NCBI GenBank assembly: GCA_002104985.1
Contig: MCGO01000011.1
Span: 124,001-188,000 of the forward strand
Origin: Rhizoclosmatium globosum
Lineage: Eukaryota > Chytridiomycota > Chytridiomycetes > Chytridiales > Chytriomycetaceae
Length of the DNA: 64,000 nucleotides
Direction of reading: 5' to 3'
Part shown: in pieces, positions 2 to 36,572 of the stretch
How positions within the stretch are numbered: position 1 is the stretch's first letter
Layout of the letters: the number at the start of each line of letters is the position of its first letter
The notes under the pieces: generated by a model
What the model was told of the DNA's origin: nothing
The model's database searches: none
The model's input: only the letters and a program-made list of their open reading frames with translations
Made by a program: the position numbers and the translations under genes

Positions 2-2652
2 CCACAACCATCCGCAAAGTCTTCCCAGAAAGAATCAAACTGGGTCACTGTCGAAACTACAACCTTAAACGCACCGTCCTCTGAAACCCCCGTCGCAGGC
101 GCAAGCCCACTCAGAAACCCTTTCACGCATTACGTGACGTGCGAAGCGACGCTCTTTGGTGTTGATGGTGTCATCACCAACTGTAAAAGAATAGTCCGCG
201 GCGTATCTGTTGCAGCAGGGATTGCATACCTCGGACGCTACGCACGGGTCCCTGCCGATGAGGTTTCCAGGAGTGGAAGCAAGAAGCAAAAGCATGACGA
301 CGTTGAAGTTCCTATGCGTAGCGGGAGTAAAAAGCACAGGCGTATAATGAGGGTGTGGAGGAGAACGTGTTTCTAGAAAGGGGAGTAAGAAGCAGCCTGT
401 GTATGTGAGTGAGGACGAGGTTGTCGCTCCTGTTTCGAGGAAGGGAAGTAAAAAGCAGGCTTATATGAGTGAGGAGAACAGGTTCCGATGCCGGTTTCTA
501 GACAGGGGAGTAAGAAGCAGCAAGCTTATTATGAGGAAAGTGGGGAAGAAATTCCGTTGCCTGTACCAGTGTCGAGGAAGGGAGTGAGAAGACGAAACCG
601 GAAACTCCCGTTCCTGTGTCGAGGAAGGAGAGTAAGAAGCAGGCTTATATGGTTTCGGACGAGGAAGCACAGGAGCATGAGGTCAGAAATGTGGCAAGCA
701 AAAAGAATGTGGAGGAGGAAGTCCCTCGTAAGGCGTCGAACAAGAAATATCAGGGGGATGAAGATCTCGGCAGAAAAGATTCACGGAAGAAGAATGCAGA
801 ACCAGCGCCACAACAGCAATCCGAAGATCCTTATGGTATGATGTCCCCAAACCGTAAAATGGCGCAAGAGCTATTCGATTCGTACTTGGAACTTGAAGCC
901 CCTGATCCTGTCCCACTTCCACCTTCCGTTGTTGCAGCAGCATCTCTCCCCGCTTCTCACAACCTCACTTTCAACTCTCAGCCTCAACAAAACCATCTGC
1001 AACATCCCCAAAGAAAGCCAAAAAGACACTGAGACAGCCAGCATCCTTCTCAGACCTCGACTCTGAATTCCAAGACTTCCAATCACACTACTCTGCGTCG
1101 CCGTCCCCTGAACCAGCCTCAAAGAGTACAGTCAAGTCCCCAATTTCGAAGGAAAACCCAGACCCGCATCCATATCACGACTCTCGAAAGCGACGCGAAT
1201 TGTATCCACTGTTTCATCGCGGTTCAGTGCTGGCGATGAGAGTGTTGCTGGGGGTGGGAAAGGGTTGGATACCACGCGGTTGCGATACGCTTCATCAGAG
1301 GAGGAAGGAGACGTTTCAAGTGGTGCGGACAGTGCTTTCCAAATCCCTGCGTCTCCACCTGCACCTGTGAAGGCGAAATCTCCACAGAAGGGGCAGTCTC
1401 CGAAAGTGCGGTCTGTTTCACCGGTTGTGCAGCGGAAACGTGCGGATAGTTTGAGGAGTTCAGGATCAATTGGAGAAGGGGATCAAGCGATACTGAGGAT
1501 GAAAAGAATGTGCCTTAGTGAAAGCAAACCTGTTGTTGAAGCTCCGAAACGGTGGGGTAACAAGACAGCAATAGTAAAGCTGCGCCGCCTCCGCCTCCAC
1601 CTGCAGAATCCGACTCAGCGAGTAGTAGTAGCACGGAGGAGGAGGAATCGTACCCCCGTCGAAAACCATCTGAAAAAACTCCCCCTTCTCTTTCCCGCTC
1701 GCAAACCCCAGCCACAACCACAGATATTTCCCCTGAAAAGAGGAAAGCCCCTTCCCCTGTTAAACTATCTCCTCCACCGACACCAGCCAACGGCTTCCTT
1801 GGCTCAATGTGGTCCGGAAAAGGTGCCAAGCCCGCTGCCGGCAAGTCGAACCAGCAGCAACAGGATTCACCTGGATCCATTCGAAACTCCATTATTAGTA
1901 TCGCAAGTCGGGCAAGTAGTGCTGTGTCCGATTCGGTTGGATCCCTTGTGGCCCGTGATCAACCTGTTGCATCTACAACTCCTAATGGCAGCACGGAAAC
2001 TACAGCTACAACAAACGCCCCAGAAAAGAAACGTGGAGTTCTTGGGTGGATATTCGGGGGAAAGAAAAATGCTGCTGCTGCCGCGACACCTACCGAACCT
2101 ACTCCCACAGCGACTCCACAAGCACCAGCTGAACCTGAAGGTCCCAAGATCTTTGGAAAAGCCAATATCGAGTCTGTTATCGATCCACGATACTCTGTCG
2201 TCAGTGCCGCTAGCACGCGACTTTCTGTTGCGATTGGATCTCGGTCAAGGAAACCAAAAGGCGATGACGATGATGGCGATGATACCGAGGAAGAAGAGGA
2301 AGAGGAAGAAGAGGAGGAGGAGGAGGAGGACGAGTCTGTCATGGAATCGGTTCCTGAACCTGTTGTTAAACGACGACCTCCCCCGCCGCGAGTTGATACA
2401 CAGCGTGGGGATGCGAGGACGCGGGATTTGAGTGCACCTCGACAGGGTGTGAAACGGTCTGACCGAAGCCATGAGCGGGTTGATGCTTCTCGGCAGGAAA
2501 GGAGTCGTGGAGGTGATAGAAGTATGGATAGGAGTCGAGATAGAAGGGATAGGAGAGTTGGAAGTGATTCTGAGGCTAGACGATATGATGGAAGGAAGGG
2601 TGGTGTGCAACAGAGGGATAGACGAAGGTCGTCTTTTGATAGTGTGTATTGA
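2..2652 (+). CDS. Disordered Ser/Lys/Glu-rich repeat protein, 5' partial, frame broken
   Basis: The frame is open at the left edge, so the 5' end lies outside the window. The last stretch (1807-2652, 281 codons) is intact: Ser/Pro/Ala-rich, then an acidic Glu run, then Arg/Asp-rich, ending RRSSFDSVY. Upstream the same kind of low-complexity sequence continues but changes frame near 340, 370, 485, 585, 985, 1215 and again between about 1490 and 1590. A short unit (consensus VSRKGSKKQAY) recurs in all three frames, which shows the breaks are recent or artefactual. I see no domain with enzymatic residues and do not recognise the family. The composition suggests a scaffold or a nuclear or cytoskeletal adaptor, but that is inference. 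It could be a pseudogene, but the intact 3' part and the single-base nature of the breaks favour sequence error. Confidence 0.6.
240..660 (+). repeat. Degenerate tandem repeat encoding SRKGSKKQ units
   Basis: About seven copies of a unit coding for V-S-R-K-G-S-K-K-Q followed by 8-15 acidic residues lie in this stretch (near 268, 311, 370, 438, 492, 572 and 617). Spacing varies from about 40 to 80 bases. Successive copies fall in different frames, so each junction holds an indel. The unit at 572 shows one directly: it has one G fewer than its neighbours in the run before AGT. Confidence 0.7.
2285..2332 (+). repeat. GAR purine tract encoding a Glu run
   Basis: A GAA/GAG run codes for about 16 consecutive acidic residues in the intact 3' part of the repeat protein. 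The opposite strand shows a poly-Ser open frame that is only its shadow. Confidence 0.85.
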
Positions 2653-5931: not shown

Positions 5932-8900
5932 CTAAACATCAGTTACATCCTCATCTTCATCATCACCACCCTCATCTTCACTCTCCTTCTCTGCCAGTTT
6001 ACTCAACACACGCTTCGCGTAATCGTTCGTGCTACGCGCTGCCATGTTATCCAGACCCTTGCAGTACTTTTCAAGCACTTCTGGGTTATTATTCGCCTCC
6101 GACAAACACAACAAGTGCAACAGAGACCTCTCAGCCGCCAACTTGATTGGAATAACTCTCTCACGCACAAGGAGCATCAATGTTGGGACAAGCAACTGTA
6201 AGTGTGGCGCCACGACGTTGTAATGCTTCTTGGCAAGATTCTTGACACCCAAAACGGCCATTCTACGAGCATCCACTTCAAGACCTTCTTTAGACAGACC
6301 AATCAAGGACTTCAACAGGTTCACGCGGCTTGACTCGTCCAAGAAGTTTTCTGTGGCGTCAAGGAACAGCAAGTTGTTTGCACACGAAACCGAAGCTTCC
6401 AAGACGACTGACTTGTTGTTCTCAAAACCTTCGGTGACCTTATCCAGGGTGGTGGCAAGGAACGATGGGTTTGTTGTGATCAATGCTGGACACTTGATCA
6501 AGACGCGAGACAATGTCTCCATCAGACCATGACGTTTCATATAAGCAGTGACAAGGTCATCCAAAACTGATTTACACAGAAGCTTGGAGCTATTAAATTT
6601 CAATTGTCAGTTAAATACGAAAGCAAAGTCAATCTGCATACCTAATCAAAGTCTTTGCATCATCAGACGGTAAGTATCTGGCATACACCGCAAAGCATTT
6701 TGCGGCAAACTTTCGAATAACATCTGAAAACACCGAGAGTTAGAAATTGAAGGTAAAAGAATTAAGGGCACAAACCGTCATTCTCGCCAGAGTTGAAAAG
6801 AGTTTCAATCAAAATTGTCTCAACTGTCTTCTTGCTGACATCAGTGATCTCCTTTCCTTCAAGTCCATTGAGCAGACCCAACAATGCTCCCCACATAGCA
6901 TCGCGCACACTTTTCTCTTCAGCAGTCTTGATTCCAGTCGTCAGTTCGACAATCAATGGATCCAAACGTGGCTGGAGTCCAATCAAAAGAGTCAAACACT
7001 TGCGAGCAGGAGTTTGAACATAAAGAACAGGCTCAGAAAGAGACTTGATGAAAGTTCTCTGCAGCTGTGGCAAGAATGGCTTCAAGTTTGCCGGAACCTT
7101 GACCAAGAGAAGACTTGACAAGAAATGTTAGTTGATTGCGAGAAACAAATAATCCTTCTTACCCAAGAGTCTTCAAAATAGCAGCCTTAACACCAGGTGC
7201 AACTCTGTCACCGATGATTCTGATCAATGGACCAGTGATCTGGGTAACAAATGCTTTGAGCCCTTCAGGGCTGGTGCGTCTGACCAAATCACCCAATCCC
7301 TTCGCCGACTCTTCACGGACATCAGACTGACCATACATAAGACCTTGCAAGAAGAAAGGCAAAATTGGGGAAATTCCCTTTGGCAAACAAAATCCTTCGA
7401 GTTCCTCATTTGGTCCCAAGTTCTCTGTAGCCCCTGCAATGGAGCGTCTGACAGGGGTGACAAACTTTTCCATTTCGTCCTTCTTGATTCTCTTTGACAA
7501 CGCGTCGACAGCACCCCAGGCAGATTGAACCATTTCTGGAGCGTACTTTGGCGCACCTTGGAAAATGTTGATGAGTCTGCTGAACCACTCGACTGCAAAT
7601 TCAGAAACATCTCCTTGGATCCTTCACAGAACATCATGAAGCAGTCACAAGCAGCGCGAGCCCGAGCATCAGAGCCTTCAAGCAAAGACTCAGACAAGAT
7701 TGGCATCAGGAGGTACAATCCATCCTCGTCAACGCTCAACAAGAGTACCTTAATGGCTTCGCGGATGTCAGCCACTGCGTGGTCGCCCTGTTCAAGAGCG
7801 TCCATAAGAGTTGGCAAAATAACACCCAAACGTCTGTTCAAAGCAGATCCAGCGACAGAAATCAAGGAAGCAAGAGCTCTTGCGTTGAAAGCGGTAATAG
7901 GAGTTGTCAACAGAGTAGGAATCAAAACAGGGAACACAACATTGCTGCGAACCGACATGATTTCCTTCAAAGCTTCCAGGGCATATGCCCCAGTAGCACC
8001 TCCACCAGACTTCAATTCATTCAACAAGCTTGGCAAAACTTCGTCAATGGCCTTAGCGCCCATGTGTTGATGCAGCATGTCGAATGCTTGAGCAGCGGCT
8101 TCTCGAACTTCTGGCTCTGGATCCATGAGAGCTTTCTTAACACTTGGAACACACTGCACAACAAAGTCCACAAGTTGGGCCTTTCCAGCAGTTGCCATAA
8201 TTTCGGTCATACCGATACAAGCACCTTCTCTGGTAGTAGCCTCGTCAGATTCCAAACCAGCCTCCAACACTGGAACAAGTCTCTCCAAAACGACATCACC
8301 AAGTTTACGGACCAAGTCTCCAAGAGTACGGGCTGCAACACCACGCTTCTCAGCGTTCTCATCGGCAAGAGATTCGATAACCATTTGAATAATAACTGGT
8401 AAAATCTCCTTGAGGGTACGAGGAGTGTTGTTGACAATACTCTTCCAAACATGCAACGAAGCAGAACGAACGATACCGTTCTCGTCACTACGAACCATGT
8501 ACAAAGCGGACAAAACACTTTCGTATCTGTCTTGCCAGTGTAGTGAGAAGCGCCTTCTTGTTGTGTTCAGTTCCAATCGACTCATCTTCGTTTCCGTCAA
8601 TATCCACCTTTCCAGAAACACCTGCGATTCTGTAAAGCAAGTCACCCATCAATTGGATGGAAGACTGACGAATTCTCCAGTTTTCATCAAAGAGACCAGT
8701 CTCCAACTCTGGCAGGAGCAAGTCTACAGCAGTGGTGGCGTAGTTACGGACAACGACGCGACCGCCTTCATGGAAGTTTCACGCACAGTATCAGTTTCAT
8801 CAGCCAATCCACGGAGAATAGGAGGAATATTCCACCAATATATGGTTGGAAGGCATCCCCGAAAGTAGCTGGCAAGAAGACAAGCAAGGTGATGAAACCT

Positions 8901-19184: not shown

Positions 19185-21500
19185 TGTGTTTTTTCGAAAA
19201 AGGATCTCTTGTTTTTTCTATACAATGGGCGAGACTGGTAGTCTTTTCGATAATCCACGCACAAAGCCTACGAATCAGAGCATCACTATCGCGTTTTTAG
19301 GTCCTTATGTTGATTGCGATCGGTTGACGTTGAATGGTTCCTTGGTAGTATCGGGTATGGAGACATTGAATGTCACGCAGTACTCCGACTGGAATAGTAT
19401 GTCTACTTTTAATATCTTCATGTACCTGGAGTTTGGTGCGATGGTAAGTTTCTATTCAACCAAAAAAAGGATTGATTATGGATTCGACACAGGCCGCCAT
19501 ACGCGACATCAATCGAAATCCAAACGTACTTCCAAATATCCACATCAATGTGAAGCGATTCAACGTTGTTACCCCAGACAGTTTTGGGACTATCAATGGT
19601 GGCTATGTCGTCAGCCAAACAATCGTTCCTATCGCCGAAACACACACAGGTCAGCCATTAGCTAGAAATTCAATGATTTAACTTGCAATTAGATGTAATC
19701 GCGCTTTTTGGTGACATAACGGGATATCGAATCCCAGCAGTCACTTCATTTTACAAGCTTCCAGCCATCGACCCTCGTGGTTTCAATTACGGTCTCTTAG
19801 ATCGCATAAAATACCCCTACTATATGCAGCTGGATGCAATGGGTGGAATGCCGGAAGTTCTGATTTTGCTATTGAACCGTTTCAAAGTAACAAGGCTGGC
19901 CATGATATGTGAAAAAAGGGATCCTATGTGCATAACAATGACGAGAGCACTTCAACAGAACGGCTTTAATATTTTGCTGTTGTTGGATATACATTCTGAT
20001 CCTGACTACATTGGTCTTTGGTTGAAGAAAACAAACGCGCGGTACATTTACCTCGATGGACCATCATATCAATTGAGCTTTATGTACGAAAAATTGGCGT
20101 CGAAAGGATTTGTTGGAAAAGATTTTGTTTACTTTGGGCCTTTCTGCCCTGAAGTGCTTCAAACTCCTTCCACTGAACAGGCTGTCAATGACTATCGGAA
20201 AGGATTTATTTATTTAGGAGGCTTTAACGACATGACAGAAGATATTAAACTACTGCAACAGCATGTACTTGATACAGTAAGCACATTTACAAGGTCTGGT
20301 TTTAAATTCATCAACAGTCACGAGATGCTGACAGCATTAAGCTTTAATATTACAGATGAAATTGCAACATACACTAATTTGTTCGCATCTTACGATTCCA
20401 TTTGGACCTTAGCAGCCGGAATAGACAAGGTACTTAAGCACCAACCAAACCTCATTCATGAAAATATAAAATTGTGTCTGAATTCGTCGGCGTTTATGAA
20501 TACCGGTATTGCTTAACAAGTCATGATGCTCAAGAATATAGAGGCATCAATGGGGATCCCTTAGAAATGACAAAATTGGGAGATTTGAGAGCACCTTATG
20601 TCTTAAATTCATTTACGGGATCGGATTTGAATGCGGTCCCATTTGCTAGAACTGATTTAAATTGGTCAAAATTCACTGACTTCAATGAGACAAGCTTAAT
20701 ATTCAATGATGGTAGGTTTTAAGCTCAGCTAAATTATATTTCGAAAATATTAAAGTGAAGTAGGATCCAATATTCCTCCTTCTGATGGTGCATTGGTTCA
20801 ATCAGAAGTTTTTATTGACTATTCAAGCACAAGTGGAATCATTCTTATGCTCTTTGCAGTAGTCGGGATATTCTCAACCCTCTTCACACTCAGAGTCATT
20901 TTGGTGAATCGATCAAAGTCATCTCTTCGTCATTCTTCTCCTCAACATCTAGCGGTTATTCTTCTGGGAATCATAGGATTATATTGCAATGCTTTTTTAT
21001 ACTTGGGTCAGATTCGAGATTGTTTTATGACTCTGTGGATACCAGTGCTTTCGTATAGCTGCATTGTCGGGACGATTAATGTCTTGATATTCTCTGGCCA
21101 GAAGGATCAGGCAAAGTTCTTGAAAGATTCTATCTACATTCGGTATCTGATTATTGTTTTATGGTTCGAGATTGTACTTCTGGCTGTGTGGACCAAACTG
21201 TCGAGTGTACAAAGTCTAAAAATTGAGCTAGCTCCGGATTCTTATGCCTTTGCTTGCCAATTTTCAACTCGAATGGACTGGCCTTATGCTTTGATAGCCC
21301 TTTTCAACATCATTCTGGGCTTGTTTGCACTTGTAATTTCAGGATTGATTTGGAATGTGGAGGCGACTTACAATGAATCCAGTGAGATGTTGTGGACGGT
21401 AATTGCCATGGTTTTCTATGTCTTGGCATCGTTTGCGTTGGATAAGGGTGCTGATTTTGGCAGGAAACTAATTTTCAAAGCAGGGGCATCTTATAATTAA
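19177..21500 (+). CDS. Class C (GABA-B-like) G protein-coupled receptor, apparently short of TM7
   Basis: Five exons (19177-19443, 19493-19649, 19693-20505, 20544-20711, 20764-21500), introns 38-52 bases, phases consistent, 713 residues. The first part is a bilobed periplasmic-binding-type ectodomain: SITIAFLGPYVD starts the first strand, and EFGAMAAIRDINRNPN, PRGFNYGLLDRIKYPYYMQ and a GDLRAPYVLNSFTG C-terminal strand follow. The ligand in this group is often an amino acid or GABA-like molecule, but no ligand can be read here. I count six hydrophobic helices (TM1 from SGIILMLFAV; TM3 with Cys at CFMTLWIPVL; TM6 MLWTVIAMVFYVL). The frame then stops after FKAGASYN, with no TM7 or tail before the next gene 48 bases on. 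The start is uncertain: the first ATG gives only a weak signal sequence, so an upstream exon may exist. Confidence 0.75.
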
Positions 21501-21548
21501 TAGCTCAGCTCAAGTATTTGTACAGTGGGTAATGATTATGAACTTACA

Positions 21549-24500
21549 TCAGCTATACGTCGCTAACGTGTCCAGCAGCTCCACGGGAGGCCAAGTGCAA
21601 GATAGGAAAGTATGTGGATTGTCATCCACTCGCTGAGATCCTCGGTAGTCATCCTCAGCCTGCCTCGAAGTGGGACCAATCCCACCTTCGTCCAATCTCC
21701 CTTCCACCTCCTCCACCACAACATACTCTAAACGACCTTTTACAATTCGCTGCTTCTTTGCAGGCGGTAGTTTGGAGTCACTGTCACTTGGTCCTCCATT
21801 TCCCTCACTGCCTCGACTTCCACCACTTCGTCCACTCCCTCCACCTCTCCCTCCTCCCGGTCCTCCACCACCCGGATCGCCGTTTCCATCATTGTTTTCA
21901 GCACCGCCTGTCCCACCACCTCGAATGTGGTGATGAACCCGCATCAACGCAATCGCCCACGTTAGATTCTCAATGAATAAGCCGCTTTTGATGTCGCGTG
22001 GGAGACGGAAGGTTAGGCTATCACGCGAAGAAACTGCACGACCACTGCACCGTGGGTTGGAGCATTTGAATGTCTTGGCCTTCCCGATTCGTGAGATGCG
22101 ACCGCAAAAGCACATGATTGTTGACCCAATCTAGTGAACAGTGAACAGGTTAAATAAAGTAAAATGTATGAGACTCTTACTTCAGTCACTATGACTACAG
22201 CCTTGATCTTTCCAACTCTGCCAACAAGAGGAAACGCAGGATCAAATTCTTTGGCCATGATTTTCTTCATTGTGCGTGTATTCCAGGCAGGTCCACCAGG
22301 ATTAAAGAATGCGCCGTCATTTTCTGACTTTTTGTACGCCATTACTGTGGTTTGTTTCCTGATGGAAGCATGAGCCGCATATGAAAGGACAGTCTTGACC
22401 CATTCTAAGACAGAGGAGGTTAGATTCAAAATTAAGTGATCAATGACACTCACTTGGAATACCATCCTTCCCAGAAGTCACTTTCTTGTTTGTGGTTTTG
22501 GAGTTGAAGTCAGAAGTAGCGTATGAGTCAGCACCAGAATTCCATTCCGCGGCAGATCGGCGAACTCGTTGAGCGTACTTGTTCAATTTGTCCTGCGTGT
22601 TCTTGAGCAGCCGTGACAAAAGGTTTGTGTCGTCTCCACCACCGCCTCCATCACCACCTCCATCAAAAGTGACATTGAATTCATTTCGGATCTTTTTCAA
22701 CTCCTTATCCACTCTCCCCACTTCATCCAGAAAATCATTTTCCTCCTCCACCACATTCATGTCATCTGGGCCAGGAGTTGGTTTACGAACCATTCTTGCT
22801 GACGCGCGAAGATCCTTCAACCTAGCGTCCAATTCCTGTTCCGCTACAAGTACAAGATTTTCCAGTCGCAATGTTTCTTTTGATACAACTTGATCACCAG
22901 AGGCGTATTGAACAAGATCCAGTACAGCAGCAGCGACAAGACTCCGTAACTCCACCACAGCCTCAAGTTGATCAATGGCTCTGTCTCGAAACGATTGAAG
23001 TGTGCTGATGCGTTTCTGAAGACGACAAATCACTGCTTCAAATCCGACTCCAATCTGGACAACATGGCCAGTGCTCGCCATCTGCGTTTCCACTGTTCTC
23101 CCACCTGGATCACTGCTCAACAATAAACGAGATGTTCCAAACGCATTCCGAAACGCAGACTGAACCGCTTCTGATGGATTCGTGATCCAAACATCAGGAC
23201 TGTGGAAGGATCCCATCCGAGATTTGAATAGTTCAGTATCTTCAGCATGTACTGCGCCCAATTTGACAGAGTCGTAACGAAAAGATCCAAAGTTGTGTTG
23301 CCGAGAATAAACAATCATGGCATCTTCCAGTTTGCGGCGGTGCTTTGCAGAACATTCATTCTGAATTCGATTTCGGATGTACCGAACCAAGTGCGATGCA
23401 TGCCGATATTCCTCGCGTGCCTTCAAGTTTGATGGATTTCCAGCATAGTATTTTCGAGTCTCAGCCATCTCTTTCAAAGAATCTGACAATAACTCTTGGA
23501 CTTCATTAAAGCTGACATCAATGGAATTGCGGTTGACTGCGGGTGTTGTTGTTGGATAACGTCGAGGGGCGTTTTTGTATGAATATTGTTTCGTAATCTG
23601 TCCTAATTCTTTGGTGTTCATGTGGTGAGTTTGAAGCGGCAACATTGATTTGAAGATTCCAGTTTCCCTGTCATACGTAATGCTGATTGCACCTGGCCTA
23701 TACGTCACGAATTTATTCTTGGACGTCGGGAAGTTGATTGTTGAGTTCTTTGTCAGACGAAGGTGGATGACATTCCTTGCACTCGCAAATATCTTGAATC
23801 CCAGTGGATGAACAACAAGCCTCTGACAGAGCGGACCTCCTTTTTCTAAAGCCAGACGCATCAAGTTCAAGTAATGCAAATTGACAGAAGGGAAACTAGG
23901 CGGCCATGGAATGTCTCTGGTGGGTTCATCACAAGAATCAAGGAAATAGCCTTCAATGTGTGGAGCTGTTTGTTTGTTCTGATCAAAGACTGCAGACTGC
24001 ATCCCCCGAACTTGAGAGTCAGGAAGTCTGGGAAATATGGTGTGACCATCAACCGAGAGATATCGACGATTTGAGTGGCTGAACTGTTCATGGAATGATT
24101 TTCCTGGTTGAATGTGTTGGATTAGGAAAGTGGAATGAAAGAGATGATGTCAGATACAGAAAAAAAAAAAGATTACCTAATTTCAGGCCAGTTGTAGCCC
24201 ATGTCTTGTATCTGGCAATAGCGCCTTTGAACGCACCCTGCACAACACCTGCGTTGTTGAGCTGTTCACCAACCTTGTTTTCCAAGAATCCTTCATTCCC
24301 AAACAACAAATACTTGCTCTTGCTCAGCTTAAATATATCAGTGAACAAGTTTACAAGATCATCTCGGCATAAATGTGTGATGTTGACATATGGTGTAGAA
24401 GATACTAGTCGTGTTCCAGTTTCCAGACACAAGCCCCACTGAACAGGCTGGATATATTGGAGAATAGAGGTCTTGAACGAGGTTCGTAGTTGAGCAAGTG

Positions 24501-27500
24501 TTAGCTGGGAGTTGTCCTCTGGGGCTTCGTCTTCTTCATCCACTCCCTCTTCCATTTGAACTCCAACACCTCCGCCAACTCCAACTCCAACTCCAGCAGG
24601 TATTTCAACATCAATTTCTTTCACGGGCTTGATGACAAATGAAACGACAAGAGCATCGAGAAACTGGGAAAGAGCCTTGGCGTAAAAGTTGCCTCCGACA
24701 GCAGGCCGAACTCCAGTGATGATTGCTGGATGCCTGTAACGCTCTATATTATTCCGCGACTGTATAGTATCATCGATTCCATTTTCCACTTGATAGGCAG
24801 GCAAATTCATGACATACTGATAGATGGAAAGTTCATGTGGACTCAAAGAACTCAGATTCACTTGATGATCAGTACCAACCAGAAACCCATCAACCATGCT
24901 GAACGGGCCAGTTTCGATAATCACATTCATGGCTCTAGTGGTACCAAGCTCTGCATCAGTCAAAGGGACTTTGGAATCAAGGAAGCGATTAAACAAGAGA
25001 TTCGAAAAACATTGTGCAGCATCTTGAAGATTTTGAACTGGTATAACTTGACCAACACCTGGTGCAAGCCGAACTCGATAAACAACCTCTCCAGATGAAT
25101 CTTCACTTGTATTCTGTTGGCGTGGAACATAGTCCTCATTATCTCCACCCTGAAGACTTTCTTCATCATCACTACTGTCTGCTTTAGCCGCCTTTGCAGC
25201 CTTCTTTTCTCTCTTCAAGTCATCTTCAAGCCAGATGCTCAGACTCAGTTTCAACGCTGAGATGCTAGAGTCCTTCAAATACTTTGCAAGGTAATGTTCC
25301 TTGTTGGGGATGTTGAAGCCAGATTCTGGATCCAAAAGTTGAGTAACAACAGCAGTCCTTAAGAGCGCGAGCTGTTTGGCAGAGTGGTCTGTTGGATAAT
25401 ACCAATACTGTCCAGAATCGGTGATGAACCCAACAGCTCCGTCATTCATTTCTTCTTCCCAAACTTGGAGTGATTCACTGGTATTTGCTGCTCCCAACAA
25501 CATGGCCAAGATGATCATTCGATCCCAACAACTCGACTTTGAAAGTTTGAGCCCATCAAGTTCTGTGACAATATCAAACAGAATTCTCAGTGGATTTGAA
25601 TTTTTATCTCCAAACAGGTCGCGTATAATCTCAAGAAGATGTTGAGGTTGCTGGCCAGCAGACAGACAATTATTCTCAATCTCAGGGCTCTGGTTTCTTT
25701 TGAATGTTGGAGAGTCCAGAAACGATAATATTCTGTGGTGGACTGGAAACTGATTCTGATCTTCGGGCGGACCATTTTGAAGTCTGATGTTTACAGCGGC
25801 TGCATGCAACTTGTTGAACAAATTGATGGTTCCAGGAGTAAGAACATGGACAGTGTCAAAGATCAAGGTTGAAAGATCCACGTAAGCTTTGAGTGACTGT
25901 CTTTCAGCTTCGTTTGGAACCGTTCCTATTCAACAAAAGGGAAAGAATAAGAGAAATGAAGAGGAGTATAAAGATATCAAAGACATAAAGTAAACATACC
26001 ATAAGCTACATATGTATTCAAGAAATGCTGTTCGTGGTCTTTCTTGTCAACCGTCATCCTTTTCCGCTCCAGTATCATGTCGGCTTGTGCGGCAGTCATG
26101 TCCCTAAAACCAGAAAAGATCAGTTCTTTGATGACAACAATGAAGTTGAAGAATGCTCACGCAAGATCAATCTGTTCTTGGGTTGCATCATCAGCAAGGT
26201 TGCGACGGTTCACAAACGCTTGTTTCAGCTGACGTTCCTGCTCTTCTTTGAGAATCTTGATTACTTTGGGAGCCATTTGTTTCAGCTTTTTGTTGTCTAG
26301 TTCAAAGATGGAAGTGTCAATCTCGCGTCGAGGTTGTTTCTAGGTATTTGGGTTAGGTTACATAACGTTCTGTAATTCAAACATTATACCAAGACTTGAA
26401 CTTCCTCAATGCGGCCTTCACACTTGGTCTCGTCACTCTTGGTCTCAAAATCTCCAGTCTTGTTCTGTTTGAAAAGCGGCAGAAACAAGGCCTCGTATTG
26501 ATTGTTGTTGGACCAGTTACGCGGAACCTCGCCCAGTTGCGGAACTCGTTGTGAAGGCATAGTACCAGACAAGTGGGCTCCTTTGTATCCACGAGTGTGT
26601 TTGAAGGTAAATTTGGACCCATCTGAGGAAACAACAACTGGACGGATATTCAAGACTTTTGAATCAGACGGAAGAATATTGGTTTGAAGTGTCAGATTCA
26701 GAAAGTTGTGCTGAGGAAATACAAAATCCCAGTCTTCATCATTGAAGCGTTCTTGAACTCTTTGATGCAGGACAAAATCAAGAGTCAGCTGCGCGCCACC
26801 TTCAAAACGTTGCTCCATATAAGGCGGAGTTTCTTCCAGCTTTAACCACCTTTGAACTACTGCGCGCATGTTCACATATCCAAGCTTCGAGATAGACAGT
26901 GGAGACGACATGGGTTGTGCGACCCGACCTCGACCAAAGTGGGTTGCGATTGCTGCGTTCAAAACAAGATTGTTGGAATTCTTGAACTTTGGGTGACGGG
27001 ACAAGAGCTTCCTTATGACTGTGTTGAAGTTGTTGCGATACACAGAGGCATTGTCTTGACTGATAGACACAGAAACAAGAGAGACAGGCTGTTCATGTAC
27101 CAAGCCAGCAACAAAGTTTTGGATTCCAACAGCAACAGAGTGGCCTCGAACACGTCGAAGAGTATCATTCCAAGCTGGAGAAATAAGTTCATTCCATAGA
27201 TAGACTTGGGTCTTGTTGCCGCCAGGACTTATGAACGACTGAGAAATGGAATAGAGTCTTTGATGCGACTCTTTCCCCACGTGGAGCAAATGAGTTGTTT
27301 GATATCGGAAATCCCGAAGAACCACAGTCTCGCCCATAAGAATTGAGTGAAGACCCAACACTTTGATTTTGGCAGAAACAGGTTGGTTCTTGGTGGGGTT
27401 GAAAGACGTTGTAGCCAGCACTTGAAACAAAGGTAGAATCTATTGTTGAATGCTCGGTTTTAATAATTGGAAAGAAGTGGAAGAATAGAAAAACATACAT

Positions 27501-30500
27501 GTGATATCTTTGAATCCTTATTCTTGAAGAACACAACACCAAGCTCCGTAGCTCCTGAAAACGTCATTGGTTCTTTGGTGAAATCAGGTGCTTTCGAATA
27601 ATGCTTGAACAAGACAGACCCAGAACACCATTCTCCATTTGTAAACGTTGGCTCATTGTCAGCAAGCCCGTTCAGTAACGTCAATGCTGATTGGAATACG
27701 TGATGCATACCATTCTTTTGTACTTTGAGGCTGCGACCAATAACCTTCTTGTTGAGCAAAGAAAGTCCAATCAACATCAGTTTGCTCAAGTCCATCAGCT
27801 CTGTGTAGTTTTCAGAAGACTGGAGAAATGATGCGGGACTGATTGGAGTGGCATCAATGAACAGCTGACACTCTCCCAATCCTGGTCAAATGATAAGTTT
27901 TGATACTTGGTTTAACAACAAACACTCACCATGTGCCTCTCCCATCTCAACGTCTTCATTATCGTGCAAAACGTCAACACCACCAACAACAACGTTTCCA
28001 ACTGCATCAACTTGAAGATCAAGACGGTGCTGGTTATCCTGAGCAACTTGGACTCGGTGTTGATGAATGGGGGTGTTCAATAAACGCGCACTGGTTGTCC
28101 AGTGCAGAGTTTCCACAATAACCCCAGTCACATTCTTGATCCCGCCCTTCTTGTTGTACTGCTGAACTGCACCAAACAACTCTATTGCCTCCTTGTCACT
28201 CAGCTTGGATTTATTGGCTGCTGCAAAATCAAGTCGGTGCGCCAAATACGGACCATAGCTTTGATAAACGTCTTGATTCTTCACGGCGTGATATACGTTA
28301 GTCAAGTCAACGTCAGTCGGATCACCATTTGTGAATGCCTGCCAGGTAGCAGCCAGTTGGCGAAGAACAATAAAGTCATGAAGTTTAAGCTCCCGATTTG
28401 TCATGGCTGTCCGAGGAGGTTTCAACTGTTTTCCATCGTTGGTCTTGATCCAAATTGGATAACTGCCTGGACGCATAGAGTGAGCTGCTGTTGCTGGATG
28501 ATTGACTGAATACACGTGACTTGATCCCATTTCGAAGGCCTGGTTTACTAGACGAGCGTCCATAATCCCAAGCGAAGTGACACAGCGAGAGGCGTCAGAA
28601 CCAGCCACCAATTGTCGATTCACAACTGAGTTGGCACTTGTGGATGGAGCAACAGTAGTATTTGGATCAGCCAGAGCCGGAGAATCTGGAGAATCAGGAG
28701 CAACGGGAGCAACAGGAGTTACGGGAGCAACAGGGGCTACGGGCTCGACGGGAGCAGGAGCAACAGGGGCTACAGCAGCGACAGGAGCAACAGGGGCTAC
28801 GGGCTCGACGGGAGCAACAGGAGCAATGGGTACAGTAGGAACAGCGGTAACGGCTGGATCATAGTTTGGATGTGACTCAATCATATGTCGAATCAAGTCT
28901 TGACAATATCCATCTTGAAGGCAGACAGGACAAGTATCGTCCTATAACAGTATACCACATAAGTAAAATATAAAATTGGCAAGATTCAAAACAAACCGTT
29001 GATCCAGCTTTGGGTGAATTTGAAATAAGTCGAGCAAGATGGTTGTTGAAAAGATTGGCATCTGTGTACGATCCTATCGAGGGAACAGTAGACCGTAATG
29101 AAGCAGGTCGATGAAAATGTTGAGCCAACAGGTGAGCTTCAAACGCAGCCAATGTTGCAGCGTCACTTGACTTTTGGTGAGAAGTTCGACACAGTGGACA
29201 GAAGCCATTCTAAGTGTTGAAATTAGTATGACAAACAAAATGAAATATCATACCAAGAAGTGTTGTTCGGTAAAGACCTCTGCAAGTCGATAATCTTGAT
29301 TCTGCAATTTGTCCATTAGTATGAAGTGCTCCTTCTTCCAAGCTGCTCCGCTGTCTGGTCGAGGACGTTGAGGCCAGCTTCCAAAAACAGAGCTACTTTG
29401 TCTTTCTTGTCTTCCCCCACCAAGTACATTGGATGTTCTGCCAACATCTCTGACTCCACCACCTCCAAGTACATTGGATGACCTTCCGAGAATTCCAAGT
29501 CCACCACTGCTGACAGACGTGAATTGTTTGTCCGCGACAAACAAACTTTGACTCCCGCTCCGACCTCCACCAATACCAGTAGAACCATTCCTGTTCCCAC
29601 TTCCACCTCCACTTCCACTTCCACCTCCACCTCCACCTCCACCTCCACTCCCACCAACACCAGTAGAACCACCACCGTTCCCATTCCCACCAGCACCAGC
29701 ACCAGCAGCAACACCAACACCAACACCAACATCAACATCAACATCAACATCAACATCAATCTCTGGTTCATCCATCAAAGAAGCAGCACCAGCCTTGACC
29801 ATGAGCGCCAAAGTCACTTTGTACATGGCTTCGTGAATGGCCTCAACATTGGCAACCTTCTTTCCAAGAACTGGTTCCGCACACACACCAACGTCCAGGA
29901 GTATCTTTGGACAGAACAGATACCTAAAAAGCAAAACGCGTCAACTCTAACAAGACTAACATAAGAAAGAGAACTAACCGATTCAGCGACAAGATAAACA
30001 CAACAGTCGGAACAACGTTTCGCCTTCGAGATACCAACTCCTGCCTAAACTGTTCCAACCTTCCACTCAGAGGGAATATAGTAGCGGCGTGAGTTTCTCG
30101 CAGCACATCAAAAGTGGCTTGATTGATACTGTAGCTCCAGTCCCCTGTGAAACAGCTGCAGTGATCCAATCCGTCAATCATACCCTGAGGACACTTGTAC
30201 AGTTGAGGTACTATACTGAACTGCGTTTCACCCTCCAGATTGTTTTCAGCATTGTGTCTGCGCACGGAAATAATGCGATTACGAATCGCAATCAAGGCAG
30301 ACCCAGCTGGATGAATGAACCCAAACTGAGATTCAAAAGAGGCCAGAGCTTCATGGATGGTCATATTGTCAATAGTATCCAAAAAGGATTGACAAATAAG
30401 TAGCGACTGTGATGTACTCAAGAACCTATTATAAGCACGAGCAAACAAACGATAGCGTGGCCTCAGGGTGATGGGAATGAACGACGTGCTCCCATCAACG

Positions 30501-33500
30501 TAGATAGAACCTTGAGGTACTTTGACGCGGGTCAGAGACAAAGACTCCTATTACGAAACAATAATACTGTGGTTAGAATCACGATGAGAGACATTTTGCT
30601 AAACTCACCATTGGTACTGGATCCGAAGGAGGATCCTCTTCAACATCATCTGCATCGTCATCTTCCATTGCTCTCTTTCCTTTCCCTTTCGTTGCTTTCG
30701 CTTTTGTTGCTTTCGCCTTCACTGGTTTTGCAGGTGGGTTTGGCTGTTTTGCTTTCTTGCTCCCTTTTCCAGCAGCTGAAATGAATGGAGCCGTACCGTA
30801 GCCTAGATCCAAATCTGCCAGGTCTTGCTCGAGCTCAAACAGATCAACAGAATCAAAGCTGTTCAGATTCAAAGTTGTGGTTCCGATCAGCAAATCTTCC
30901 AGTCCGTTATCAGAGTCCACATCCGAATCCACCTCCGAGTCCACCTCCAAGTCCACGTCTGAGCCCACGTCTGAGTCCACCTCCAAGTCCACCACACCGA
31001 AGTCCAAGTCAGAGTCATTGGAGTCATCGAAACCAAATCGCTGAAACCAATCAAGTAGTTCAGAATCAATGTCACTGACCTTATCATCAAGAGTTAGATT
31101 CAACAGAGCATCAATCAAGATATTACCTCTCCATCAGCCAAAGATTCAGGGTCGGAATTGTTACACGTTGAGGGTTCACTTTGCGTCTCTGAATCAGACA
31201 CAATAAACGAAACATATTCTGATATTTGAGCCGGAGGAGCAGACTGCGTGGACACAAGGCCTGACTTGGCTTCCACGGTTTGAGACAAGGCAGAAGAAAT
31301 AGAAGTCGCATCAAAGCCAGACATTTCGAATGGAGCGTATTCAGGCAACGGAGAAGAAGTCAAAACAGAAATAGAACTTGTTTCGCTTTCGACTGCACCA
31401 GAAGTGGCTAACGTGTTGGACCTCAGTGGGACAGTCGTCTCTTCGTCAGACTGATAATCTATTTGGTTCAGATTCTTTGGTGTTGGTGTTGCAACTACGT
31501 CGAGGTAATCACCGCGTGATATAGTCGCAGAAGAGTCGCCGACGTTGAGATCAGAATCCTAAAAAACCAGTGAGACAACACTATTTCGAACACAAAAAAG
31601 AAAAAAACTTACAGTTGTGGATGATTGGCGGGAATAATGGAAGGGGCGACGACCTCGGCGAGAATATGGCTGTATTGGGCTGAAACTTGGGACAGACGAA
31701 CCAGCCACTGATGAACCACTAAGAGATGGAAGCTCATTGGACTCATCACGAAGAGGAACAGACGGTGGTTCTTGACTTTCGACGGGTGTTGCATCAGTAC
31801 TGGATGAACCAACTTTTTGGCTAGGGTCAGTACTTGAGTACATATTATCGGCTCCTCCAGGTAGTTTCCCAACAAATCTGATAGTGGAGTCAACAACGAG
31901 ATTATACGCTAAATTAAAAATGTTAGATCACATTTAAACAAAACATTACAAACGTACACGAGAGTAAATGAGAGTCATCCATATACTGTCCTCCAAAGAC
32001 CAACTGAAGCGAAAAAGCATTCGCAACATTTCTGGACTGGACGAGATAATTTCGAAGCTCAAGAACAGTGGCGTCTTGCCGAATCTCGACAAACAAATGC
32101 TTCCCGTCCAGCAATTTGACAAAGAACGCCAGGACTTGAGTCAAACACGTATTGAAGCTTGTTTTAATAATAGCTTGTTTTTCCATCACACTTGGTGCAG
32201 CATCTGAAGCTTCAAAGATTGCCAGTGCAAGTGCGGGTGATGGAATCCAATCATGATGCGACATGGATTGCAAAGAGAACCAGGATGCGTTTGTTTTGAT
32301 TACAGTTTTGGACTGGAGTTGCTGGACGAGTGTTGGTGGCGGAGGCGGAGTTGGTGGAGGAGGAGGTTCTGGTGGAAGACTGTGGCTTTGAGGTATGGTA
32401 ATGGCAGCGTTACTTGAGTCAATAAGCTCGAGTGGAATTGATAAACCTATTAAATTATAATGGATGAGAAATAGTGTAAAGAGATTGTGTCGAATAGTTA
32501 CCAAGTTCAGGAAGCATACGTGGTAGAATGAAGTCAATCAAGGTGATTGGTTCATACGGTGGCAAGTAAAGTCTTGCTTTTTTGATGCCTAAAGACGGGA
32601 TTGGTGGAGTTGTGACAACAGACGATATTGAGTGACGATGTAAGGTAGCAGACAGCCAATTCAATGACGGGATATCACCCATTGCAGGATGAAAGATGGA
32701 AGGAGACCATGAAGGGGATAATTGAGGATTCATGTCCGAGAACCAAATCCCAGAATAGCGATGACTCTTCTTTGTAGATGGAATCTTGGGTTGGTCAGAC
32801 CTCGTCTGTGACAGACGACGAGGATTTGGAGACGCAGTGTTTGGAATCATGAAAGGATTCAAAATAATTGAATCGGACTGGTTGGAAGCAGGAATTGGAG
32901 TGGAGGTCTTGATGGTATTTAATGGGCTGTGTGGCCCTGGACGTGACGCAAGACGAACAAGAGTACTGGAATTTAGACCGAGGCCTGACCCAACAATTAG
33001 CTCTAGACACCTTAAATGAATTGAATCTTACCTGAGAGTGTTGCACCAGATGTTAATCGCTTCCAGTGTCGGCCAGGTCGATACAGTTGGAGGCCTTCAA
33101 CTGGAAGACCAACAGCCAAACATGTAGCCTCCTTTGCTTCAAACACGGTTGAATCGTTGGAGACTAGAACCATAACGATTGATCCAGTTGGAACGATAAC
33201 AGATAGATAGAACTTGTCATCAACGGACAGGGGCTTCAACGGCACTGATAACCAACTGCAACTGGACAGCCGAGAGTAGCAGACATACTTGATGAGATCC
33301 AACGGCCCGCCAATAATAAAGCCACAGAAGACCAGTAGTGAGTAGAACGGGAGAACAAGGTTCTCATAACGAGCAAGTAACTCAGCAACACCAATCTCCT
33401 GGATAAGTCGTTCGTAGCCAGAGAGCAACTCGATCAGTTGAGAGAGCTTCAGTTCCTTGGCCACGGCTTTGAGACTCCTCTTGGCCCAAGACTTGTGTCG

Positions 33501-34137
33501 GCGATGTTCTTTCCGTCTTCGTTCATATTGAGCAGGTCCAAAGAGAGGATGATTTCTCAACCATTTTGAGTGGAACTTGAACTGGAGACGCAGTGAGTTC
33601 TGGAATAAAAATCTTTCCCAAACAAGTAGAAAGAATGGAAGAGGGCATGAGATGGACACGGAAAGGAGTGACGAGATTGAGAGTTTCAAGGCGACCTGGG
33701 GAAAGGAAAAGACAAACGTTAGAAATGCGAATCAAGAGGACACAAGAATCGTACCTGCGTGTCCACAAGTGGAAGACAGATTGAAGCCAAGAATCCTCCC
33801 ACGGTGGTTGGAGACCAGTGTTTGGAACCCCTGATTACATTCACTTGGACAATGGACGTCAAACACCGACAAATGATCAGAGAGAGACTACGGAACGAAT
33901 AGGATACTATGTGTCAATATTGTCAGTGATACTCATTGCGATTCAGGAGACAAGACACACCTCCAGCAGTAAAGATTTTCGAAAGGAAGGAAAAGAGAGC
34001 GACGACGGAGAAAGAGAATAGCATCGTTTAAGTCTATTTGGATCTTTAGTATTAGTGCTTAAATCAAGAAGAAGAGGAAAGGCATGGTAGGAATTAGGTG
34101 TAGATAGCCTCTGCAAGGTTCCACTCGTAACAAACAT
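21549..34137 (-). CDS. Giant ubiquitin-like / TnpB-Fanzor-like nuclease protein (about 3,840 aa)
   Basis: Twenty exons in coding order: 33961-34137, 33755-33887, 33032-33695, 32502-32984, 31958-32446, 31613-31908, 31127-31558, 30609-31079, 29979-30547, 29254-29923, 28997-29209, 27930-28941, 27499-27881, 26390-27439, 26161-26339, 26000-26103, 24177-25925, 22454-24103, 22181-22404, 21549-22130. Introns are 44-74 bases and phases agree except one extra base near 33560. Order of parts: two ubiquitin-like folds (about 265-342 and 602-667, the second ending GG); acidic Ser/Asp tracts; Gly/Asn repeats; two C2H2-like fingers (about 1465-1560); Pro-Val-Ala repeats; a long unassigned region; a RuvC nuclease module (about 3350-3705); a Gly-rich tail with [12 protein letters not shown], a nuclear signal. 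Exons 1-3 are least certain. Family assignment rests on motifs read by eye. What it cuts, and whether it uses a guide RNA, is not visible. Confidence 0.65.
21990..23450 (-). other. RuvC / zinc-ribbon nuclease module (TnpB-Fanzor type)
   Basis: RuvC-I is [20 protein letters not shown], with the Asp codon at 23109-23111. It is followed, as in TnpB, by VVQIGVG and a long helical stretch with basic residues. A RuvC-II candidate is the Asp in YATSDFNSK (22509-22511); TnpB usually has Glu. Then come [14 protein letters not shown] and FKCSNPRC, a zinc ribbon with Cys at residues 3656, 3658, 3672 and 3677. RuvC-III is [13 protein letters not shown] (Asp at 21993-21995), matching RDxNAAxNI in spacing. 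Confidence 0.6.
28695..28848 (-). repeat. Pro-Val-Ala coding repeat
   Basis: A run of six- to nine-base units encodes V-A-P-V-A-P and V-E-P-V-A-P after the second C2H2-like finger of the giant protein. On the plus strand it reads as a false collagen-like GAT frame. Confidence 0.8.
29570..29765 (-). repeat. Simple repeats encoding Gly/Ser/Asn and Val-Asp/Val-Gly linkers
   Basis: CCACCT-type, ACCAACACC-type and ACATCA-type microsatellites lie within exon 10 of the giant gene. They code for alternating D-V-D-V and G-V-G-V, then a Gly-rich linker. Length polymorphism is likely. Confidence 0.8.
30888..31010 (-). repeat. Asp-Ser-Asp-Val coding repeat
   Basis: Repeats of about 12-18 bases in exon 8 of the giant gene encode D-S-D-V and E-V-D-S units, giving an acidic tract. 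Confidence 0.75.
31852..32100 (-). other. Second ubiquitin-like domain, ending in Gly-Gly
   Basis: Split by the 31909-31957 intron. It reads [19 protein letters not shown], then [20 protein letters not shown], then [12 protein letters not shown]. This follows ubiquitin residue by residue in its C-terminal half (RLIFAGKQLEDGRTLSDYN, STLHLVLRLRGG). The GG falls near 31854-31859 and is followed by Ala-Asp, the context in which deubiquitinases cut ubiquitin fusions. Confidence 0.75.
32930..33212 (-). other. First ubiquitin-like domain of the giant protein
   Basis: Split by the 32985-33031 intron. It runs from [19 protein letters not shown] to [11 protein letters not shown]. The order of strands and the TLS...STL...L pattern at the end follow ubiquitin, where the equivalent is TLSDYN...STLHLVLRLRGG. 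The tail reads RPGP instead of RGG, so it cannot be conjugated or cleaved in the usual way. Confidence 0.6.
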
Positions 34138-34630
34138 TTGACTCAATCACAGATTGATAGGGAAGGAGGAGTGAATAACCGATGGTATCAAGAGGAATTG
34201 AAGGGTGAGATACGAGAAGATGAGATCGTAATCAAATTGAGTGGGGGACGGTGGTCCAGACCAATGACAATCCAGATCACGGAATGAGAGGATGCCGTAA
34301 GATCGCAGAGGACTCAAGGTGAACAAACAGTCCTCAATCAACGACAACTAACGCTCGCAGCTTTAAGAAGGGAAGGGAAGGTAAGGGACGAAGGGGAAAG
34401 GGGATTCACTTGCAAGCGTTTGTTCAAATTTGTGAGGATTTTCAAAATTTGTCTCCCTTATTGAAAAGGAAGAGGAAAGAGAATGAACAGAAAATATATG
34501 GCATTATCACCTCGTTGTTGAAACCCTTGTTTCAGTCCTTAAAAAACGGCAGTATTTTGCACTATTAGCGATGACTGGATTAGTTTGAGGGATATTGCAG
34601 CAAAAGAAGCCTCATTAGACTACGTTGGTG
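34138..34630. other. Intergenic upstream of the giant gene
   Basis: 493 bases. The minus strand has a 66-codon open frame (34147-34347, ending SVIHSSFPINL) that could be a missed 5' exon of the giant gene, but it lacks an ATG and no splice junction is convincing. No terminal inverted repeat or target-site duplication was seen relative to the far end near 21500. Confidence 0.4.
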
Positions 34631-35057: not shown

Positions 35058-36572
35058 ATGAGATTGGATGCTTTGAAATCATTATTATGGAGAGATTGGG
35101 GCTTCTCAAAATCCACACCACCAACCACAGCACAAACATCAATGATGTCCCAGATCAACATTGAGACAGTCTCGCATGCCGCGTACTGGATCTCTGCAGC
35201 CAGTATACTTTGGTTCAGTGTGGTTATTGTTGGACTCTTTCAAATCGTCTGGTTGCAAGTGTCCTTCTATCCGGCCGCTTTGGCGAAGGCGGGCTACTAC
35301 GTCCATGTTGCATCAGGCACTATCTTCTTCATCGCAGGCCTTCTCCAGTTCAACACGAATCTCCGGCGAAACAACCCGTTGGTACACAAAGCCTGTGGCC
35401 TCGTATACTATGGAATGACGATCCTTTCGACGGTGAGCCTACTCTTTATCGCAATTGGTGGCTCGGAAACCGGCTTTGCGGCCTGGTTTACCGTTCTTGT
35501 TCTTGGACCTCTCTGGCTGTGGATCAACTGGCTCTCGTACAAGGCAATACTGCGAGGGGACGTTGCACTGCATCGAAAAATGAATCTTCGAGCATTTGGT
35601 TTCGCAAATACGATTATATGGATGAGGCCATTTTTGTTATTAATGGTTTGGCCGTGCTTTCCCACATTCGTGTGGGATGATATGCATCCCGTTATTATGG
35701 AGGCGTTAAAAAGTGCTCTTTGGCTCTTTTTCTTCATTCAGTCGGTAGCAATGGAATTGTATCTGCATTGGGAGGACGCCGTGAATGGTATAGATGGCAG
35801 CCACGGGGTATCAACTTTCATTCACTCTGACCCATTCATTCCCGTCTCAGTACATCGAATGGAGATGCTGAACGACGCCGTGCTTCGTGTTGTTTTCCAA
35901 ATTACGGATTCATCTGCGCTGCTTATCACGACAGCAGGACAACATATCTCGTTGAAAGCCATTTGCAATGGCTCATACGTAATTCGTAATTACACGCCTG
36001 TTACCACACGCGCTGATATGGAATCTGGCTTCGTGGATCTGGTCATTCGTCTTATCCCAAATGGACAGATGTCAACATTGCTGTTAGACTCCGTGAAAAC
36101 CGGTAGCAACCACAAGTTCTCAATTGCTTCGTGCCATAGAAGCTTCGATTATAAACCAAATCAATTCTCGACTTTAGTCCTGGTCGCTTCAGGAACTGGA
36201 ATCACTCCCATGATCAATATTGCCCGAGCGGTGCTCAAAGACCAACGTGACAAAACAAGAGTGCATATTATTTTCAACGTTCGCAGTGCGGAAGATGTGT
36301 TCTTTGAATCTGAATTGAAGGAGTTGGCAACAGAAGGGTCCGAAACTGCAGCGAGGCAAAGCTCAAATAAGCTAAGATTTACGTTTACGATTCGATATCA
36401 AGACAGTGATGGACATGTTTCGGCTGAATCCATTTTGAAAAACGTTATTGAATCGGGCAAACTGAGAATTGTTCTTTCTGGCCCAACTACATTTGTGAAA
36501 CCCCTAGGTATGCAAATTGTACAGTTGAAACGAAAAATTTCGGTGTTTGTATTTGGAGTTACTGATTGGTGA
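35058..36572 (+). CDS. DUF2306 membrane domain fused to a ferredoxin-reductase-type FAD/NAD module
   Basis: A single exon of 504 residues. Residues about 40-240 form six or seven hydrophobic helices in the pattern of DUF2306 (YYVHVASGTIFFIAGLLQF, HKACGLVYYGMTILSTV), with several intramembrane His that could bind haem. From about 270 a flavin-reductase module follows: RNYTPVT is the RxYT FAD site, ASGTGITPM is the nucleotide loop and VLSGPTTFV is the C-terminal motif. This layout suggests electrons pass from NAD(P)H through FAD to a membrane acceptor, as in ferric reductases and cytochrome b5 reductases; that role is inference. The ATG at 35058 gives a hydrophilic lead; the ATGs near 35142 are alternatives. 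Confidence 0.7.
   Translation: MRLDALKSLLWRDWGFSKSTPPTTAQTSMMSQINIETVSHAAYWISAASILWFSVVIVGLFQIVWLQVSFYPAALAKAGYYVHVASGTIFFIAGLLQFNTNLRRNNPLVHKACGLVYYGMTILSTVSLLFIAIGGSETGFAAWFTVLVLGPLWLWINWLSYKAILRGDVALHRKMNLRAFGFANTIIWMRPFLLLMVWPCFPTFVWDDMHPVIMEALKSALWLFFFIQSVAMELYLHWEDAVNGIDGSHGVSTFIHSDPFIPVSVHRMEMLNDAVLRVVFQITDSSALLITTAGQHISLKAICNGSYVIRNYTPVTTRADMESGFVDLVIRLIPNGQMSTLLLDSVKTGSNHKFSIASCHRSFDYKPNQFSTLVLVASGTGITPMINIARAVLKDQRDKTRVHIIFNVRSAEDVFFESELKELATEGSETAARQSSNKLRFTFTIRYQDSDGHVSAESILKNVIESGKLRIVLSGPTTFVKPLGMQIVQLKRKISVFVFGVTDW

Follow-up and report, generated by a model that had tools for sequence, protein, structure and literature searches.

Described Fanzors are compact, and the role that they play for the elements carrying them is presented as open in PMC10432273. 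Fanzor1 proteins are mostly 600-700 aa long (PMC11423790), with some Fanzors reaching ~800 aa (PMC10711439), and SpuFz1 from the chytrid Spizellomyces punctatus, listed as SPu-1-1p, has 633 aa (PMC3627910). The Fanzor1 elements CRe-1/2/3 of Chlamydomonas reinhardtii have been interpreted as non-autonomous Helitron2 (PMC3627910), whilst PpFz1 is described as a Fanzor with an insertion of ~100 aa that binds host cyclophilin (PMC11423790). Here we describe a locus from another chytrid, Rhizoclosmatium globosum, within a stretch of 64,000 nucleotides (the window, C13:124001-188000) that was compared with the genome as a whole (56.9 Mb, 420 contigs). The window contains a single copy of a mobile element that is present many times in R. 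globosum. We read this element as carrying a giant gene whose product combines a ubiquitin-like domain (UBL) with a C-terminal nuclease of the Fanzor RuvC/zinc-ribbon type, and give this reading a probability of roughly 0.55.

21542..34616, minus strand: one mobile-element copy, ~13 kb (blastn against other copies)
21549..34024, minus strand: the giant gene, 21 exons, 20 introns, 3,794 aa (comparative model; start region inspected by eye)

To build the gene model, three other long copies, at 97%, 91% and 70% nucleotide identity, were aligned to that of the window, and the spliced frame was read from substitution patterns. The model runs from an ATG at 34024 to a TGA at 21551-21549 with introns of 44-74 nt, all phases agree and there are no internal stops. 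Those introns of a first model that skipped weakly conserved linkers proved spurious; they were discarded and the frame was rechecked. Between the window copy and the 70% copy the synonymous rate (dS) is 0.98 and the non-synonymous rate (dN) 0.23, giving a dN/dS of 0.24, compared with 0.26 for the 91% copy and 0.28 for the 97% copy. Exon by exon, dN/dS against the 70% copy ranges from 0.09 to 0.61 (20 of the 21 exons, those with a computable dS). Both GT and AG are retained at all 20 introns of the 91% and 97% copies and at 17/20 in the 70% copy, where three introns have no terminal AG in the alignment; intron identity to the latter copy is 0.42-0.76. The agreement has flaws. In the 70% copy the lengths of exons 1, 14 and 21 are off by amounts not divisible by 3 and a stop interrupts exon 19; by eye, an in-frame reading of this copy is possible from an upstream ATG close by. 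In the 91% copy a stop lies in exon 13 and exons 15 and 21 are of odd length, and the 97% copy carries a stop in exon 18. Some element copies are decayed or locally misaligned. The giant gene of the window is one open chain under purifying selection. A first-pass annotation had proposed a single chain of agreeing phases on this strand, of about this extent and size, and in this it was right; its 20 exons and ~3,840 aa become 21 exons and 3,794 aa.

The link to Fanzors comes from the C-terminal part of the protein, and was drawn through published motif rules rather than Fanzor sequences.

23094..23111, minus strand: RuvC-I motif DPGGRT, residues 3308-3313, in 19/19 copies examined
22181..22183, minus strand: candidate catalytic glutamate, residue 3601, six before the first zinc-ribbon Cys (rule from PMC10711439)
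22047..22124, minus strand: STIMCFCG...CSNPRC zinc ribbon (TNB-like), residues 3604-3629 (motif)
22020..22025, minus strand: RuvC-III RD, residues 3637-3638 (motif)
21747..21767, minus strand: PPAKKQR, possible nuclear signal (recognised by eye)

From residue 3308 onwards the order is DPGGRT, VTEIGSTIMC, CFC...CSNPRC and RD. According to PMC10711439, two features set Fanzors apart from TnpBs, namely DPG and a glutamate positioned six residues ahead of the zinc finger; both are present in the window protein (DPG; E-IGSTIM-C at 3601). The motif of Bao and Jurka reads [TS][TS]xx-C4 zinc finger-X(5,50)-RD and places [TS][TS] at a distance of 125-275 residues from the RuvC-I Asp (PMC3627910). Its [TS][TS]xxC4-RD part is present, and was found in 1 of 20,000 shuffles of the chain. 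A census of 19 of the 20 near-complete copies (window copy included, L002 left out) found DPG in 19/19, the glutamate exon in 18, the zinc ribbon in 17 and the last Asp in 17 (14 RD, 3 SD).

The genome contains further relatives. One of them, a paralogue at C334:~98.1-106.7 kb (L047, L048), shares 24-26% identity over the last large exons, with an E value of 3e-19 for the RuvC part, and appears by eye to be colinear further upstream. It starts with a UBA-like domain (L048:5597-5863; PF14555 22.6 bits, cut-off 21.8). This is a different ubiquitin-related module in a place similar to that of the window-family UBLs. A Pogo/Tc5-type DDE_1 transposase gene adjoins the paralogue (L048:1782-3263). 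In a third family, identity is 99-100% for five copies and 46% for three others; the near-identity of the five suggests that the family was active recently.

L048:410-1654 (C334) and L107:230-1384 (C201): third family members, TnpB-like zinc ribbon

The ribbon pattern of the third family is STxxC, FxCxNxxC, RD. Both members tested match PF07282 along almost the full length of the profile with an E value of 0.003, and BLAST of these members against P0002, a spliced public protein holding the RuvC part of the window gene, gave matches at the ribbon with E values of 0.003 for one and 0.059 for the other. By sequence likeness, the third family ties the window family to TnpB-type ribbons stepwise, not directly. 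Among the matches listed, database proteins matching element copies came from three Rhizoclosmatium species only, and the third family was without matches; this search covered proteins of 0.55-1.75x the query length and the best 8,000 candidates, and giant annotated relatives could escape it.

A number of results weigh against a Fanzor-type nuclease. The RuvC-I Asp-to-[TS][TS] spacing is 295, beyond the 125-275 given in PMC3627910, with a charged/Gly-rich stretch in between. No TnpB, Cas12 or Fanzor match for the protein was found in Pfam, NCBIfam or PDB, a six-frame search of the genome with PF07282 gave nothing at E <= 0.001, and the PF07282 matches of the third family lie under the curated cut-off. 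Alignment by hhalign of shallow family profiles with seven TnpBs was not significant; here the A4 and third-family queries align at the zinc ribbon, and A5 and A6 do not. Moreover, the paralogue on C334 has no UBL region and has lost parts of the zinc ribbon, cysteines included. AlphaFold on P0002 gave a predicted local distance difference test (pLDDT) of 42 and a predicted template modelling score (pTM) of 0.21, too low to confirm an RNase H-like fold. With a hidden Markov model (HMM) of the window family, other reading frames scored <= -0.3 bits, the TnpB median was 1.9 and the best of 36 TnpBs reached 7.3. However, the best shuffled TnpB scored 6.7 and 1.4% of 1,440 shuffles reached the TnpB median, whilst the best shuffle exceeded the best TnpB with the third-family HMM (8.8 versus 5.8) and with a combined HMM (5.6 versus 3.3). 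The ranking of TnpBs above other reading frames is weakened, because the shuffle control scores similarly. Since the protein has no significant TnpB/Fanzor match, the assignment rests on motif, conservation and relatives, from which membership of the Fanzor family appears probable. The TnpB/Fanzor-like RuvC/zinc ribbon of the first-pass annotation therefore stands on published Fanzor motifs, but with the spacing of 295 and with nothing significant from profile searches against TnpB, Fanzor and Cas12. Its nuclear-signal-like stretch is present by eye, and its statement that described Fanzors are much shorter agrees with the lengths given in the sources above.

The right end of the element provides a second line of evidence, on the nucleotide level.

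21541..21745, minus strand: nucleotide-conserved right end, candidate guide-RNA (reRNA/omegaRNA) region (conservation across frameshift)
21542..21547, minus strand: GTAAGT, splice-donor-like word directly after the stop codon, at the element 3' terminus
L047 ~6683-6700; L048 ~1655-1668; L107 ~220-230 (minus strand): splice-donor-like words in relatives

Over the last ~200 nt, the copy with 70% identity overall reaches 92-96%, although a one-base indel shifts the reading frame between subfamilies for the final ~25 codons. Identity despite differing frames therefore points to constraint on nucleotides, as for guide RNAs overlapping the 3' end of a gene. The window element ends in TGATGTAAGT, and at the stop codons of the paralogue and the third family stand TAGCTGTGAGTA, TTTAGCCGTGAGTA and GTAGTCGTAAGT; a splice-donor-like word, GTAAGT/GTGAGT, thus follows the stop codon in the window family, the paralogue and the third family. 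Three results speak against a guide RNA here: the fold of the right-end RNA is not unusual (z -1.26), two-sided change was seen in 1 of 59 right-end base pairs, and the right end is without an Rfam match at gathering score. The rival explanation that survives best builds on this lack of statistical support for an RNA structure. It holds that the protein is RuvC/Fanzor-derived and no longer RNA-guided, the right end serving a mobilising enzyme as a terminal hairpin or being kept by gene conversion. Helitron2 elements do have 3'-terminal hairpins (PMC3627910). In the 70% copy, the stretches near RuvC-I and the zinc ribbon likewise reach 90-95% identity, so that gene conversion may contribute to the likeness of the right end. 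Yet the catalytic residues are retained in nearly all copies examined, the nucleotide constraint spans the frameshift and similar end words recur in relatives with far-diverged proteins, and we consider the loss of RNA guidance a serious but rather doubtful alternative.

The N-terminal and middle parts of the protein contain the remaining modules.

31853..32126, minus strand: ubiquitin-like domain, residues 545-619, ends LPGG; contains the intron 31957-31909 (PF00240, Rad60-SLD)
32935..33233, minus strand: possible first ubiquitin-like domain, residues 210-293; contains the intron 33031-32985 (by eye)
33755-34024 + 33285-33695, minus strand: first exons, hydrophobic stretches, possible membrane segments (hydropathy)
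30609..31079, minus strand: exon 9, Asp/Glu-rich linker (sequence)
29563..29766, minus strand: Gly-rich linker, residues 1243-1310 (sequence)
29111..29200, minus strand: CxxC...H zinc-finger-like motif, residues 1417-1446 (sub-threshold matches only)
28870..28932, minus strand: CxxC...H zinc-finger-like motif, residues 1488-1508 (sub-threshold matches only)
28696..28842, minus strand: Pro/Ala/Val repeat linker, residues 1518-1566 (sequence)

When spliced, residues 545-619 match PF00240 with 37.8 bits (cut-off 25.4) and Rad60-SLD with 29.7 bits. The UBL rises above cut-off only once the exons are joined; an exon-by-exon domain search found no element-encoded domain above cut-off. Residues 210-293 have no Pfam match in the spliced protein and their likeness to a UBL was judged by eye, whilst hydropathy peaks in residues 1-210 could be membrane segments. 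Accordingly, one of the two ubiquitin-like domains proposed by the first-pass annotation holds and the other lacks a profile match, and its zinc fingers are present as two CxxC...H motifs with profile matches below threshold. The acidic and Gly-rich linkers that it described are there, together with the Pro/Ala/Val-rich one. Its coupling to the ubiquitin system goes further than the data, having been drawn from one UBL (perhaps two).

The case for UBL and RuvC exons lying in one transcript is indirect. Two or more adjacent genes could instead encode the UBL part and the Fanzor-like part as different proteins, the latter starting from an internal ATG such as that at 26276 (MAPKVIKIL). Public models do cut the region into small proteins; one of these, P0002 (536 aa), begins shortly ahead of RuvC-I and another, P0005, opens with MAPKVIKIL. 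The distant paralogue retains the middle and C-terminal parts behind a different N-terminus. However, among the public models for the copies are partial contigs, and domain names are absent from these models. No stop separates the two parts, 20 introns keep one frame and selection acts on both sides. Separate genes are therefore unlikely, and we continue to read the gene as a single giant chain.

Copies of the element share one end. The nuclease exon has 27 matches in the genome, 20 of them near full length (77-100% identity) on 8/420 contigs. Copies terminate at one point just beyond the stop codon, and pairs of copies then share 8-28 nt before diverging. In the window the 3' end (coding strand) is fixed at 21542/21543, whereas the 5' limit varied between 34424, 34443 and 34616 in three comparisons; the element 5' end gave 12 matches in the genome, also with ragged limits. 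A 31-bp end pattern was found 27 times in the genome with <=3 mismatches (19 exact), and its reversed control 0 times. The last 205 nt gave 36 matches, of which 28 reach the terminus (17 full or nearly so, 11 starting inside) and 8 do not. Seven of the 11 partial matches are pieces of 38-132 nt from the 3' end, with no nuclease-exon match upstream; the other 4 do have such a match and represent internal loss, not truncation. Direct repeats of 15, 18 and 18 nt flank 3 of the 8 copies for which both flanks are available, one of the 18-nt repeats extending to 37 nt with one mismatch, compared with a maximum of 12 nt among 56 mismatched control pairs. The sequence at the junctions is T-rich; for non-autonomous Helitron2, insertion beside TTTT and repeats flanking the truncated copies would be expected. 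We dropped the shared 8-28 nt as guide-directed target sites for copies with a repeat beyond the tail, where carried-over flank fits better.

Other results fit transposition less well. An in-frame stop lies in the aligned nuclease-exon stretch of 10/20 copies, some of these stops perhaps falling in the adjoining intron, and 5/8 copies are without a flanking repeat (<=9 nt). The genome contains 18 Helitron Rep matches, none on contigs with right-end matches; a mobilising partner sharing the element's ends was not found, the Rep matches' own ends not having been examined, and asymmetric terminal inverted repeats were not found by eye, no systematic search having been made. A host gene family spread by segmental duplication would explain the strong purifying selection, the clustering of copies on 8/420 contigs and the flanks that the copies C253 and C13:488k have in common, but is very improbable given the fixed 3' end with flanks diverging after short common tails, the seven short 3'-end pieces, the direct repeats above chance and the in-frame stops in half of the 20 copies. 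The first-pass annotation had also called the nuclease domesticated, which is unlikely because the gene belongs to a multicopy mobile element, with its fixed 3' end, 3'-end-only pieces and flanking repeats.

Genes and gene fragments lie close to several copies. A class C G-protein-coupled receptor (GPCR) gene with ANF_receptor and 7tm_3 matches (window 19677-21497, plus strand) directly adjoins the element, and similar GPCR gene parts, one of them inverted, flank another copy (L032:7267-7833). Just past the 5' end of the window element, an open frame (window 35058-36569, plus strand) encodes DUF2306 and flavin adenine dinucleotide (FAD)- and nicotinamide adenine dinucleotide (NAD)-binding reductase domains. 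In two of the three repeat-bearing copies, the interval from the outer 5' repeat to the element contains fragments of host genes that by eye resemble FKBP and RPL24.

L046:797-1500 and L036 (minus strand): RPL24-like / FKBP-like fragments (named by eye)

Taken together, these data suggest a product with a hydrophobic segment, one clear UBL (perhaps two), linkers with zinc-finger-like motifs and a Fanzor-type nuclease, in that order. The nuclease would bind a guide RNA derived from the conserved right end and may cut DNA matching element-adjacent sequence, helping the element to persist or copy, an advantage that has been proposed for TnpB and Helitron-borne Fanzors (PMC10432273). The N-terminal UBL might dock host ubiquitin/SUMO factors or serve as a processing tag. 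Movement would be 3'-anchored and 5'-truncating with the enzyme supplied in trans, the closest case being the non-autonomous Helitron2-type CRe-1/2/3. A more elaborate scheme, in which the GG-ending UBL exploits ubiquitin/SUMO, the right end is both guide-RNA end and splice donor, and transcripts capture host flank as guide or 3' untranslated region, is a long shot. If the reading of a Fanzor-type nuclease joined to a UBL is true, the Fanzor nuclease family has gained modules that face the host. The abundance of near-identical copies and 3'-end remnants within a single chytrid genome would also allow direct tests of what a Fanzor does for the spread of its element. A UBL together with a Fanzor signature would be a new architecture; no description of it was found in the parts of the open-access Fanzor literature that were covered, in line with the first-pass annotation.

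Compared with SpuFz1 and Fanzor1, the window protein shares the DPG of RuvC-I, a glutamate shortly before a C4 zinc ribbon and RD, and its gene is likewise part of a repeated element in a chytrid with a conserved 3' region. It is several times longer than SpuFz1, with a UBL, linkers and N-terminal 2,300 residues of no assigned kind; its gene has 20 introns, the D-to-[TS][TS] spacing is longer, no terminal inverted repeats were seen and there is no significant sequence match. TnpB of IS200/IS605 and IS607 has the same order of RuvC and then zinc ribbon, as well as a right-end RNA overlapping the 3' end of the gene, for which the window has a candidate. Unlike the window protein, TnpB is compact, has no UBL and, according to PMC10711439, carries DPhiG and an upstream glutamate. 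As described in PMC3627910, CRe-1/2/3 resemble the window element in several ways: the Fanzor-type gene contains introns, copies are truncated at the 5' end but keep the 3' end intact, the flanking repeats vary in length, some 5' ends carry additional host sequence and T-rich sequence lies near the junctions. The window element differs from them in its size (~13 kb), in its flanking repeats, seen in only 3/8 copies, and in that no end-matched Helitron was found. Lastly, whilst PpFz1 has one small insertion inside RuvC and no giant N-terminal extension in the account of PMC11423790, it resembles the window protein in combining a Fanzor with an extra module through which host proteins may be contacted.

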